NCBI GenBank assembly: GCA_017307275.1
Contig: JAFKFK010000008.1
Coordinates: 62,001-126,000 of the forward strand
Length of the DNA: 64,000 nt
Reading direction: 5' to 3'
From: Alphaproteobacteria bacterium
GTDB taxonomy: Bacteria > Pseudomonadota > Alphaproteobacteria > Reyranellales > Reyranellaceae
Shown piece by piece: positions 26,806 to 32,334 of the stretch. How positions within the stretch are numbered: position 1 is the stretch's first letter; each line of letters opens with the position of its first letter. The notes under the pieces were generated by a model. It did no database searches, was not told where the DNA came from, and worked only from the letters and a program-made list of their open reading frames with translations. A program made the translations under genes and the position numbers.

Positions 26806-27144
26806 ATGGCGCTGAAGAAGGTGGCTCTCGAGATCGGTATGGGTACCGACATACGCGGCGGCGACTACACCAAGGCCGCCGTGCGGGCGCTGCGCGATGC
26901 GCTGTGGCACAACTCGCTCACCGTCGCCACGGCGCTGGGCAAGTCGAGCGACGACATGCAAGTCGAAGTCCTGATCGGGGTGCCGAAGCCCGATCAGGTC
27001 GATACCAAGGAAGTGCTGGCGGTGCTGCCGCACGGCACCGGCACGGTGAAGGTCGTCGAAGGCGGCCTCGAGATTCCCAACGAGGCCGGCACGGACAAGA
27101 CGGTGATCGCCCAGGCGGCGGCCATCGTCCGGCTGGACCTGTAG
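26806..27144 (+). CDS. Lin0512 family protein (first copy)
   Basis: The product has 112 residues. Motifs are LEIGMGTDIRGGDYTKAAVRALRDALWHNSL and a C-terminal LPHGTGTVKVVEGGLEIPN, both diagnostic of the Lin0512 family of unknown function. No signal peptide or membrane segment. It is followed after 14 bases by a second copy and they share the whole layout (GGDYTKAA, LPHG..TVKVV.GGL). The pair probably forms a heteromer. Confidence 0.92.
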   Translation: MALKKVALEIGMGTDIRGGDYTKAAVRALRDALWHNSLTVATALGKSSDDMQVEVLIGVPKPDQVDTKEVLAVLPHGTGTVKVVEGGLEIPNEAGTDKTVIAQAAAIVRLDL

Positions 27145-27158
27145 GCGGAGGCAGCACC

Positions 27159-27503
27159 ATGGCGGCGAAACGCGTCATCCTCGAACTCGGCACCGGCAAC
27201 GACCTGCACGGCGGCGACTACACCAAGGCCGCCCTGCGCGCGGTGCAGGATGCCCTGCATCACTCCTCGCTGGCGATGATCCGGACGCTCAAGATCAATC
27301 CCAAGACCGACATGTTCGTCGACGTCACGATAGGCGTGCAGCAACCGGAGAAGGTCGATGCCGAAAAGGTGCGTGCTTCGTTACCGCACGGCATCGTCAC
27401 GGTGAAGGTGGTCAAGGGCGGCCTGGACATTGCCGATCCCGACCACAACGATCCTGCCGTGATCGCCAGCGCCGCGGTCGCTGTCAGGCTGGAGTTGCCC
27501 TGA
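27159..27503 (+). CDS. Lin0512 family protein (second copy)
   Basis: The product has 114 residues. It matches the neighbouring Lin0512 protein along its length: LELGTGNDLHGGDYTKAALRAVQDALHHSSL and LPHGIVTVKVVKGGLDI. The histidine-rich HxxS stretch after helix one is preserved as in the first copy, consistent with a conserved site. Function unknown; GGAGG at 27148 precedes the start. Cotranscribed with the Bug receptor and GST. Confidence 0.92.
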   Translation: MAAKRVILELGTGNDLHGGDYTKAALRAVQDALHHSSLAMIRTLKINPKTDMFVDVTIGVQQPEKVDAEKVRASLPHGIVTVKVVKGGLDIADPDHNDPAVIASAAVAVRLELP

Positions 27504-28636: not shown

Positions 28637-29161
28637 TCAGGACTTGAGCAGCATGCTCTTGCCCTGCTCGATGGCGGTACGTGCCATCGCGCGCAGTTCG
28701 TCGTCGGTGGCGCTGCTGACCGGATGGCCGATCTCGGCGAAACGATAACCCGGCATGCCCAACACGCCGCTCATCATCTCGGCCGCACTGGCGAACCGCG
28801 TCGTCATCACACTGAAGGCGGGAACTTGAAGTCGTTCAGCAGTTACAGAGTCGTGCAGACTGCACGATGAACAGCTTCCTCAATCTCCAAGGCCTGAGAC
28901 AACGGCATCCCAGCCTTTGATCTCCGCCACGATATGAGCGTCGGCCGGCGCGCTGTAGTTCGACTTGGTGCGGCTCACGACCTTCGCCACGCCGTACTCT
29001 TCGCGCAGAATCTGGTCCAGGTGCTTGAAGAAGCCCTTGGTGCCTTCCTTGCCGTTGGAAATGAAACCCACGGTCTTGCCCTGGAGCGTGTCGAGACGCG
29101 GCGCGAGCTGGCCGAGCGGAGCAGCCGTTCCGGGCGTGGGATCGAGAACGCGGAAGGTCAT
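28637..29161 (-). CDS. UGSC-family selenoprotein (candidate), UGA read as selenocysteine at codon 94
   Basis: One reading frame runs from ATG 29161 to TGA 28637-28639 (174 residues) and is interrupted only by TGA at 28880-28882, codon 94. The surrounding protein reads GLGD-U-GSCSSCSLHD, the invariant U-G-S-C motif that names this selenoprotein family. Downstream residues continue in good coding style (PAFSVMTTRFASAAEM ... ARTAIEQGKSMLLKS). A normal caller would stop at 93 residues. U94, C97 and C100 form UxxCxxC, a redox or metal-binding arrangement. A perfect hairpin follows the UGA at SECIS distance. The protein has no signal peptide or membrane segment. It follows the unknown 351-residue gene by 25 bases; a redox role is inferred. 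Confidence 0.85.
28838..28876 (-). promoter_or_regulatory. Putative bacterial SECIS element
   Basis: Counting from the base after UGA 28880, the transcript folds as a perfect 7-bp stem UCGUGCA/UGCACGA (+13 to +29) with apical loop GUC at +20 to +22. An outer stem continues as GUU/AAC and AGC/GCU (+4 to +42). Bacterial SECIS elements need a small loop, with G among its first bases, about 16-37 nt after UGA, which this satisfies. The core is 28851-28867. It lies within the coding sequence, as in other bacterial selenoprotein genes. Confidence 0.75.
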
Positions 29162-29186: not shown

Positions 29187-30242
29187 TCACTTCTTGGGTG
29201 GTTCGCAATCGACGCAAACACCCAGGGGCAAGGTTACGGCATGGCTCTTGTTCCCGAGCCACGGCGGGATGACCGCACCGAATCCTCCAGCAGGTCCGCC
29301 TGCTGCGACGACCAGGAGCTGGTCGGCTGATTCCATGGCCGGGTAAACACTGTCGCCCCGGTCGCGCACGACGGCGCCCTTGCCGACTTCGGCCCACTCG
29401 CGGCGATGGATACGGGCACGCTCATGGACGAAACCGGCGATGTCGCTCTTGGTCCAGCCCGCGGCCTGCAGATGCTCCCGCAACTGCTTGGGAATGATCA
29501 GCGCGTAGTTGCCGGGATGGATCGAGTAATGCCGCAGGTTGGCGCGCATCTCGGCAGCGAAGGTCTCGAGAATTTCCTCGGGCTTGGTCGTCCACTCGTT
29601 CATGAGCTGACGCGGCGCGCCGGCTGCCATCACCGTTACGGAGGACGCGCCCTTCGGCACACCGCGCTGCTCGGCGAGCGGCAGCCAGGTCGTGTCCTCC
29701 TCGTCCTCGGCGACGCAGTAGGAGAACTTGCCGGGATGACCGAGCGTCGAACGGTCGATCGCCCCCGGCCGCACATCCATCAGGTTGATCAGGCAGAGCC
29801 GGACGGCTCGTCCGATCACCGCCGTCGCGCGATCGGAATTGCCCAGCGCATTGAAAGTGCCACCCGCCCCCAGTTCGAGCCGGATCGGGCCGTTCAGCAC
29901 GATCAGTACAGCGCAGCCGCCCGTGCTCGCCGTGGCGCCGTGCATCAGGAATTCCTCCTGCATCATGGCCATCCAGGCGGTCACGACGACCGGGAAATGC
30001 ATGGGCAGGCAACCGGCCATCACGGCATTGATCGCAAGCTTCTCGGCGGTAATGGCAAGCCCGCGCACCGGCTCGATGCCGATGAGCTGGTCCGGCGGCA
30101 TCATCACCCATTCGAGGCAGGCTTCGACCGCCTCGCGCGTCGGCGGCACGATAGGCAGTCCATCGGTCCAGCCGTTGGAGTGATAAAGCTCCTGAACGGC
30201 CGAGATGCTATCGGCATCGTAAGTGCGCGAGGCGAGTTGCAC
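29187..30242 (-). CDS. Conserved protein of unknown function, partner of the UGSC protein
   Basis: The product has 351 residues and no signal peptide. Motifs are GWTDGLPIVPPT near residue 25-35, a Gly/Ala-rich central domain (GGCAVLIVLNGPIRLELGAGG) and a C-terminal CVDCEPPKK, giving a CxxC. WTDGLPIVPPT-type proteins recur beside, or fused to, UGSC domains in my recollection, so the two may be one functional unit. It directly precedes the UGSC gene by 25 bases. Enzymatic function is not assignable from sequence. Confidence 0.7.
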   Translation of the reverse strand: MQLASRTYDADSISAVQELYHSNGWTDGLPIVPPTREAVEACLEWVMMPPDQLIGIEPVRGLAITAEKLAINAVMAGCLPMHFPVVVTAWMAMMQEEFLMHGATASTGGCAVLIVLNGPIRLELGAGGTFNALGNSDRATAVIGRAVRLCLINLMDVRPGAIDRSTLGHPGKFSYCVAEDEEDTTWLPLAEQRGVPKGASSVTVMAAGAPRQLMNEWTTKPEEILETFAAEMRANLRHYSIHPGNYALIIPKQLREHLQAAGWTKSDIAGFVHERARIHRREWAEVGKGAVVRDRGDSVYPAMESADQLLVVAAGGPAGGFGAVIPPWLGNKSHAVTLPLGVCVDCEPPKK

Positions 30243-30325: not shown

Positions 30326-31240
30326 TCAATCGGTTCGTGCCCATTCGCGTCGCAGGAAGGCGAGCAGGCCGGACGCCGCCGGAGTCGGCTCCCGCTCCCG
30401 CAGGGCGATCAAGCCAAGGCGATGGATGAGCCGGGGTTCGCTGAGCGGCACCGCCCGCAGGCCCCGTGCCAGCGGGCCCCGCGTGGTGCCTCGCGGCACG
30501 AGGCCGACGCCTACTCCCGCTCCCACGAAGGCAAGCATGGTCGCGAGCTGGGTGACGACGACCATCTGGCGCAGCGGCACACCGACCGTCGCCGCCGCGG
30601 CGTCGATGGTACGGCGGGTGCGCGAACCTGTCGGCAGGGCCACGATCGTCTCGCTGGCAAGATCGGCCAGGCTGACCTTGTGCCGGCCGGCCAACTTGTG
30701 ACGCGCCGGCATGACGGCGCAGAAGGTCTCGCGTCCGAGCGCCGTGCCGACGGCGAAATCCGGCAGCTCATCGACATAACCGATGCCGAAATCGGAGACG
30801 CCGCTGCGGACATCTTCGAGCACTGTCGCATGCACGCCCTCGCGGATGTGGATCTCGACGCCCGGCCGGTCGGCGCGGTAGGCCGCGACGATCGACGGCA
30901 ACGCGCCGCCGGCCACCGACATGATGGTCGAGAGTACGACCAGGCCGCGTCGTTCCTCCGCGACCTCGCGAACGCTCTGCACCGTGATGCCGAGATCGTT
31001 CAACATGCGCTCGGCGACCGCCGCAAACTCGCGGCCCGCCGCCGTGATCTGGACGCGCCGTGTACTGCGGTCGAACAGGCGCACACCGAGCGCCGCCTCC
31101 AGCCGCTTGATTGCCCGCGTCAGCGTGGGTTGCGACAGGCGCAGCCGGGCCGCCGCAGCAACGAAGCTGCCATACTCGGCGAGAGCCAGAACGGCCTCGA
31201 GCTGACGGGCACTGATGTCTGGAAGAGTGGCCCGCTGCAT
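30326..31240 (-). CDS. LysR-family transcriptional regulator
   Basis: The 304-residue protein starts at ATG 31240, five bases after the LLM gene. It has an N-terminal winged HTH (about 8-67, FVAAAARLRLSQPTLTRAIKRLE) and a C-terminal periplasmic-binding-like effector domain. The sequence upstream of 31240 belongs to the LLM gene in another frame. Unusually for a LysR gene it is co-directional with and inside its likely target cluster (LLM oxygenase upstream, unknown and UGSC genes 83 bases downstream). Confidence 0.92.
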   Translation of the reverse strand: MQRATLPDISARQLEAVLALAEYGSFVAAAARLRLSQPTLTRAIKRLEAALGVRLFDRSTRRVQITAAGREFAAVAERMLNDLGITVQSVREVAEERRGLVVLSTIMSVAGGALPSIVAAYRADRPGVEIHIREGVHATVLEDVRSGVSDFGIGYVDELPDFAVGTALGRETFCAVMPARHKLAGRHKVSLADLASETIVALPTGSRTRRTIDAAAATVGVPLRQMVVVTQLATMLAFVGAGVGVGLVPRGTTRGPLARGLRAVPLSEPRLIHRLGLIALREREPTPAASGLLAFLRREWARTD

Positions 31241-31245
31241 CAGCC

Positions 31246-32334
31246 TCAGGCCGCCAGCATGCGCTCGCGATTGCGCTCTCGCAGGATCGGCATGACCCAC
31301 TTGCCGAAGCGCTCCGCCTCCTCGTCGTGCAAGTAGCCCGACAGGCAGAAGGAGTGGCAGCCGAGGTCGATGAACTTCTGCAGCGTATCGGCGCACTGCT
31401 CGGGATCACCGACGATGGCAATGCCTGCGCCGGGCCTGACCTGGGTGATGCCGGTCCACAGATGCGGCTCGATCGTCTCGCCAATCGCCGCCAGCTCGCG
31501 CACCCGACGGTTGGCCTCCGACGTCGCAAAATGCTGCTTCACGAACTGCTTCTGGCCTTCGCTCGCATGTTCGACCAGCCCATGGGCAAACTCCCAGGCT
31601 TCCTTCTCCGTCGGTCGGCAGACGATCTGCAGGCGCATGCCGAAGCCGATCTCGTTCTCGCGGCCGTGATGGGCCGCCATCGACTTGATCTCGGCCATGT
31701 TGGCGCGGATGCGATCGTAGGTGTCGCCCCAGAACAGGTGGACATCGGAATGCTTGGCCGAAATCTCCCAGGCCTGCTTGGAGCCACCGCCGAGATAGAA
31801 CTTCGGATAGGGTTTCTGGAGCGGGTAGGGCCGAATCTGCGCGCCCTTCAATTGATAGAACTTGCCATCGAAATGCACCGGGCCGCGCGTGGTCCACAGC
31901 GCCTTCAGGATCGAGACCTCCTCGTCCATGATCTCGTAGCGCTCTTCCTTGCCCCACTTGATGCCCTCGGCGGCATTCTCGGTCTCGCTCTGGCCTGCGA
32001 TCAGGTTGATGCAAATGCGGCCGCCCGAAAGCTGATCGAAGGTGGTGATCATCTTGGCCAGCAGCACCGGATTGATGTAGCTCGGCCGCGCCGCCACCAG
32101 CATGCGCATCGACTTGGAGCGCGCCACCATCATGGCGCTGGCGATCCAGGCCTCCCAGCAGGCCGTCTGCACCGGGACCAGCATGTATTCGAAGCCGGCG
32201 GCCTCGGCGGCATCCACGATCTTGTCGAACAGCGGCATCGACGGCGCCACCTGCGCGCTGGCCAGCCCATAGGCCGTGGTGTCGCCTGCGGTCGGCAGGA
32301 ACCAGCCGAACTCCAGACGCTTCTCTCCACTCAT
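31246..32334 (-). CDS. LLM-class flavin-dependent monooxygenase (SsuD-like)
   Basis: The product has 362 residues. Signature pieces are LEFGWFLPTAGDT, the RPSYINPVLLAKMITTFDQLSGGRICINLIAG region and GVPCHSFCLSGY-like C-terminus, as in alkanesulfonate/nitrilotriacetate monooxygenases. It would use reduced FMN from a separate reductase to oxygenate a sulfonate or related substrate; no flavin reductase is in the window. First gene of the cluster with LysR and, further on, the UGSC selenoprotein. GGGAGAGAAGCG precedes ATG 32334. Confidence 0.9.
   Translation of the reverse strand: MSGEKRLEFGWFLPTAGDTTAYGLASAQVAPSMPLFDKIVDAAEAAGFEYMLVPVQTACWEAWIASAMMVARSKSMRMLVAARPSYINPVLLAKMITTFDQLSGGRICINLIAGQSETENAAEGIKWGKEERYEIMDEEVSILKALWTTRGPVHFDGKFYQLKGAQIRPYPLQKPYPKFYLGGGSKQAWEISAKHSDVHLFWGDTYDRIRANMAEIKSMAAHHGRENEIGFGMRLQIVCRPTEKEAWEFAHGLVEHASEGQKQFVKQHFATSEANRRVRELAAIGETIEPHLWTGITQVRPGAGIAIVGDPEQCADTLQKFIDLGCHSFCLSGYLHDEEAERFGKWVMPILRERNRERMLAA

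Follow-up and report, generated by a model that had tools for sequence, protein, structure and literature searches.

An in-frame UGA in a UGSC-family gene of Reyranellaceae, the conserved hairpin behind it and a co-occurring partner gene

Introduction

A UGSC-family gene of an alphaproteobacterium of the family Reyranellaceae carries an in-frame UGA, and this codon is probably decoded as selenocysteine (Sec) by the selenium machinery of the same genome, helped by a hairpin that directly follows it. The protein would be the selenium subunit of a two-protein reductase whose other member, U1, is encoded directly upstream. We give this reading, which draws on sequence comparison, a probability of about 0.7. 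The gene lies in a 64,000-nucleotide stretch of DNA, called the window throughout. A sequence-only reading of the window had proposed that the gene is a selenoprotein split by normal annotation. Its observation is confirmed and its interpretation is supported, and those of its proposed tests that were run (sel genes, Sec or Cys in homologues, the hairpin core and the family) came out favourable. The link to U1 was absent from that reading and is added here.

The UGSC selenoprotein family has been described before (PMC2398784), and excerpts from six sources list it as such (PMC2398784, PMC13188914, PMC9312934, PMC7539508, PMC9402790, PMC5029168). Two of these excerpts place it among the abundant selenoprotein families of ocean-survey metagenomes (PMC2398784, PMC9402790). 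Neither a function of UGSC nor a likeness to selenoprotein B is given in the excerpts from the six sources. A literature search that combined Reyranella with selenocysteine returned nothing related, as judged by titles and the opening lines of abstracts. Gene callers that end a gene at the in-frame TGA miss the second half of UGSC genes. A consistent partner gene, whose relatives number in the thousands and have no model, supplies two definite proteins for purification and assay.

The UGSC gene and its in-frame UGA

Two features define the gene:

28637..29161, minus strand, UGSC-family (seleno)protein gene of 174 codons, one of them UGA, and a stop; PF24696
28880..28882, minus strand, in-frame UGA, residue 94, predicted Sec of the UGSC (UxxCxxC) motif

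The minus-strand frame from 29161 to 28637 is open except for one TGA at 28882-28880. Its 174 codons span 29161 to 28640 and are followed by a TGA stop at 28639-28637. The window sequence and its translation thus bear out the TGA with an open frame on both sides, its D-TGA-GSCSSCSLHD context and the 174-residue product ending at 28637, all of which the sequence-only reading had described. With the UGA read through, the motif around residue 94 is DUGSCSSCSLHD, in which the Sec codon is followed by GSC. An ordinary listing of open reading frames splits the gene into pieces of 113 and 57 amino acids.

The family assignment, also made from the sequence at the outset, was upheld by profile searches. 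The Pfam model of UGSC (PF24696) matches the read-through protein at 157.6 bits, far above the cut-off of 25, and covers profile positions 2-170 of 172. The equivalog model NF041046 reaches 116.8 bits with Cys substituted for Sec, slightly below its cut-off of 125. This shortfall lowers the equivalog claim only, and the score against PF24696 places the protein in the family. Its resemblance to the family as known from these two models and from the excerpted description (PMC2398784) comprises a nearly whole-length match, the DUGSC motif and a Sec codon or Cys at the key position.

Carrier genomes and selenocysteine machinery

The window belongs to a 5.3-Mb genome that is 92% complete. The closest named relatives of its UGSC protein are from Reyranella, with 97% identity to a Reyranella MAG and 95% to R. 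massiliensis 521. UGSC was found in all 75 genomes searched within the family, in 28 of 289 genomes sampled from the class and in 5 of 398 sampled from the phylum. The genome of the window holds four UGSC copies, each with one in-frame TGA.

The sequence-only reading had called for a search of the genome for selA, selB, selC and selD, and all four were found above curated cut-offs. The tRNA-Sec gene selC scores 75.4 bits against a cut-off of 47 and has the anticodon TCA; selB scores 457.2 bits and selA 555.8 bits. These three genes lie together within 5 kb on one contig (C29), and selD (287 bits) lies on another (C30). A second match above the tRNA-Sec cut-off (L002) is a tRNA-Ser and was rejected.

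Sec codon or Cys at the motif position

A TGA occupies the motif codon in each of the 80 named-genome loci kept, the best of 435 confirmed. Among the UGSC matches in the 28 class genomes, 73 of 74 hold one TGA, counted per match and not placed at the motif; the one in genome G318 holds none. A search of protein collections found 3762 UGSC relatives, and the 120 matches listed consist of 117 new ones together with P0002, P0003 and P0004. The Sec position is Cys in all 117 new uninterrupted homologues among these 120 of 3762, and it is Cys in P0002, Arg in P0003 and Trp in P0004. Since such a collection is inherently made of uninterrupted proteins, the 117 homologues prove that Cys forms exist and do not measure how frequent Sec is. 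One Cys form (L189) comes from a genome. The expectation that homologues would carry Sec or Cys at this position thus agrees with the kept loci and with the new homologues listed.

The sequence-only reading also held that homologues ending at residue 93 would count against it. Such endings seem to be real for many database entries, which are about 95-105 amino acids long and cover 53% of the UGSC query; P0005 and P0009 terminate at 'GD', the point at which the TGA halts a gene caller. These fragments and the split frame of the ordinary listing are what could be expected if the gene were broken, with the TGA as a genuine stop, a decayed codon or a sequencing error. Against a broken gene stand the presence of the Sec machinery, the conserved hairpin described below, the conservation of the protein beyond the TGA in homologues and the recurrence of TGA at the same codon in the best 80 of 435 loci. 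Because of this recurrence a chance TGA at the motif is very unlikely, as had been argued from the window, and we regard a broken gene as extremely improbable. In a separate locus (L199), the motif of a UGSC-like gene has Cys and a TGA follows 30 codons later, which may reflect decay, error or a moved Sec.

A conserved hairpin downstream of the UGA

The hairpin core is a single feature:

28851..28867, minus strand, SECIS-like hairpin core, 7-bp stem with loop GUC

The stem (TCGTGCA/TGCACGA) is perfect over 7 bp and the loop GTC starts at base 20 after the TGA, exactly as the sequence-only reading had it. An outer stem of six pairs had also been proposed. The single-sequence fold does contain eight pairs outside the core, but the consensus fold of 92 sequences retains five pairs, all in the core, so that the proposed outer stem lacks support from conservation.

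The SECIS element of Escherichia coli fdhF has a bulged U in its upper stem and GU in its loop. The fdhF element and the window hairpin are both stem-loops directly after the UGA, with GU in the loop and equal spacing. The window hairpin differs in that it is without the bulged U and, in its pure 7-bp form, has a 3-nt loop, unlike the fdhF element.

Conservation was measured on 108 distinct sites and on 92 distinct 45-mers. The latter represent 92 of 93 references, with L218 omitted because it repeats the window's own site. The site pattern required Cys at the fourth position, C or W (or A, in the 92-sequence set) at the seventh and then HD, and hence neither set comprises all sites. The loop begins with GT in 108 of 108 sites. 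With standard pairing, all seven pairs form in 94 sites and the first six in 100. Across the 92 sequences, 98.0% of stem cells pair, compared with 96.9% in shuffles, none of which (0/500) is as high; slid registers of the stem pair at 1.4-56.5%.

Could the UGA be read through while the hairpin merely follows from the conserved protein motif and is no SECIS element? The stem falls mostly within codons of a motif that hardly varies, three of the seven pairs are invariant in the 92 sequences, and the folding energy of the single sequence is ordinary (z -1.16; 28 of 200 shuffles are as stable or more so). The codon usage points the other way. Wherever Ser is encoded over the loop (102 sites), its codon is AGT, and the remaining 6 sites have Cys TGT, whereas AGT makes up just 2 of the 96 Ser codons in seven window genes. 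Paired changes also argue against a by-product. With the T of TGA counted as base 0, the 17-29 pair is GC in 83 of the 108 sites, GU in 19 and AU in 6, and never AC; the changes from G-C to A-U are paired and synonymous. The 20-26 pair is CG in 106 sites and GC in two, L085 (one of the four copies of the window's own genome) and L190. These two read UGSCSSWSFHD, with Trp for Cys and Phe for Leu; the swap keeps the base pair at the cost of two changed residues, and RNA pairing may thus have shaped the protein there. Double changes involve two pairs and 6 of 644 cells, and since 14 of 500 shuffles also reach two pairs, the covariation is modest. Three Cys homologues, a small sample, keep 5, 3 and 5 of the seven pairs. 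We judge it quite improbable that the hairpin is a mere by-product of the protein motif.

The partner gene U1

The gene directly upstream of UGSC is referred to as U1:

29187..30242, minus strand, U1, 351-aa partner protein without a credible Pfam or NCBIfam match, directly upstream of UGSC

A scan of 27 U1 members against Pfam and NCBIfam gave no credible match (best E 0.064 and 0.042), and a fold search with U1 gave no clear match. The family is large, with at least 6810 database proteins at E <= 0.001 among the 7998 best candidates scored. In an alignment of 7 of the 120 listed U1 proteins with 20 window and locus rows (A2, which omits the second U1 of L194 and the U1 of L206), Cys78 and Cys176 are present in all 27 members. 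A C-terminal Cys pair is present in 18 of the 27 and missing in 9.

U1 lies within 300 bp upstream of UGSC on the same strand in 74 of the 80 named-genome loci, and 2.2-6.7 kb upstream in four others (L160, L161, L163 and L165). It was not found in two loci, in which the available stretch ends 1 and 702 bases from UGSC. U1 also adjoins UGSC in 15 further loci, which include the orthologue L207 and a repeat of L143 (L203) but are mostly of divergent paralogues. It is downstream of UGSC in L194, L199 and L200, and both L194 and L200 have two U1 copies.

Among the 289 class genomes, UGSC and U1 occur in the same 28 and both are missing from the other 261, an agreement of 289/289 obtained with a U1 profile that was built mostly from UGSC-adjacent genes and could miss distant U1s. 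The co-occurrence has p of about 1.5e-39 if the genomes are independent, and kinship among genomes makes this value too small. A fused form exists: in P0131, from a single metagenome contig of 1812 bases, the second half of a UGSC domain and U1 share one reading frame. A fusion of UGSC with a domain called Unknown_1 is reported in the excerpted family description (PMC2398784), and U1 is probably this Unknown_1; in the window, unlike in that fusion, the partner is a separate upstream gene. The identical genome distribution and the adjacency indicate that UGSC and U1 likely work together, perhaps as a reductase.

Elsewhere in the window's own genome (G000), two pieces of a U1-like gene, one with a TAG, lie at 94801-95205 of contig C20, a contig without a UGSC match, and are perhaps a remnant.

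Predicted fold and likeness to selenoprotein B

The predicted model of UGSC, made from 29 sequences with Cys for Sec, has a pLDDT of 90.1 and consists of alternating strands and helices. Residue 94 sits in this model between strand 86-92 and helix 95-110. Receiver, TIR, lumazine-synthase and GTPase domains head its structural matches, which are of Rossmann and flavodoxin type. These matches are general, and a designed protein ranks second among them.

The describers of the family expected a thioredoxin-like fold and proposed a thioredoxin-like role, according to the excerpt (PMC2398784). Together with the UxxC motif, this would fit a UGSC protein that acts alone as a Sec-containing thioredoxin-like thiol oxidoreductase and has U1 as a mere genomic neighbour. 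We consider such a lone role unlikely: the agreement of UGSC and U1 in presence or absence across every class genome sampled and the joining of both in P0131 speak against it, and the predicted strand and helix alternation with its Rossmann- and flavodoxin-type matches may do so too.

Selenoprotein B (GrdB, GrdF, GrdH and PrdB; PF07355) shares with UGSC a UxxC-type motif that holds Sec or Cys. In glycine and proline reductases, selenoprotein B acts together with partner subunits. By analogy, UGSC may work as selenoprotein B does, as a selenolate subunit with a partner that holds the substrate or electrons.

Some UGSC members weakly match selenoprotein B models, far below the curated cut-offs. 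In a set of 71 chosen members (alignment A4, comprising 50 of the 117 new homologues, P0002 and 20 window and locus rows), matches at E <= 0.1 were found to PrdB in 39, GrdB in 38, CheD in 30, GrdF in 25 and GrdH in 2. PrdB and GrdB are thus the most frequent models after UGSC itself. The best E of the reductase models is 7.6e-4, and that of CheD, an unrelated family, is 0.0063. The window's own UGSC protein had no match to the GrdB, GrdF, GrdH or PrdB models at E <= 0.1. PF07355 gave no match at E <= 1 among 29 UGSC members and none in the window's own genome, and a PDB sequence search with one PF07355-type protein gave no match.

Profile-profile comparison of UGSC with selenoprotein B brought the Sec motifs into register, with probabilities of 3.2% and 1% in two runs. 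The PF07355-type set omits L167, and the 3.2% comparison also omits L170 and L175 (A5, 17 of 20 loci). A profile score of 21.5 compares with a mean of 14.4 and a maximum of 21.0 in 100 column shuffles, with 17.4 and 16.3 for reversed controls and with 20.4 for U1 as a control against the selenoprotein B profile; in the 21.5 run the aligned stretch fell after the Sec motif. The Cys form L189 aligns with GrdH over residues 67-110 against 326-369, so that, by arithmetic, Cys 88 corresponds to about model position 347. A like calculation from its own match locates the Sec of the PrdB-like L182 at about 341-350. Because the profile likeness is weak, the window gene is filed as UGSC and not as selenoprotein B.

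PF07355 (GrdB/PrdB-like) has matches in 30 of the 289 class genomes. Nineteen PF07355-type genes from the range L166-L185 were examined, and an in-frame TGA lies in UPxC in 16 of them and in UPLD in L177.

Proposed mechanism

In the reading that we favour, the products of selA, selB, selC and selD of the window's own genome would decode the UGA as Sec, aided by the hairpin just downstream. SelB would bind the hairpin and Sec would be inserted at residue 94. The UGSC and U1 proteins would then form a complex, in which the Sec selenolate, placed between a beta strand and a helix in the predicted model, would attack or reduce a substrate and the Cys three residues on would resolve the Sec. U1 would supply the substrate pocket or electrons, comparable to the subunits that partner selenoprotein B in glycine and proline reductases.

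A broader suggestion, which we put forward only tentatively, is that the UGSC-U1 pair represents a new class of selenium-dependent two-protein reductase in free-living proteobacteria. It would be distant kin of selenoprotein B, and several parallel copies in each genome, such as the four of UGSC here, would serve different substrates.

Genomic neighbourhood

Several genes recur around the UGSC-U1 pair. A neighbour was counted as a relative at 50% identity or more across the 80 named-genome loci, many of which are cut by contig ends:

28336..28560, minus strand, small membrane protein gene, downstream of UGSC; relative in 48/80 loci
30326..31243, minus strand, LysR-type regulator, upstream of U1; relative in 39/80 loci
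31246..32334, minus strand, LLM-class monooxygenase; relative in 49/80 loci
26806-27144 and 27150-27503, plus strand, two adjacent Lin0512-family genes; relatives in 51 and 52/80 loci

The LLM monooxygenase resembles alkanesulfonate monooxygenase at 284.4 bits, below the cut-off of 518.2. It is uncertain whether the small membrane protein gene is linked to the UGSC-U1 module, and the same is true of the LysR-type regulator. The recurrent neighbours hint at one pathway and not at its substrate. In a locus from another genus of the same family (L195), the UGSC-U1 pair has only about 30-37% identity and is again flanked by LLM, gamma-glutamyltransferase and Lin0512 genes.
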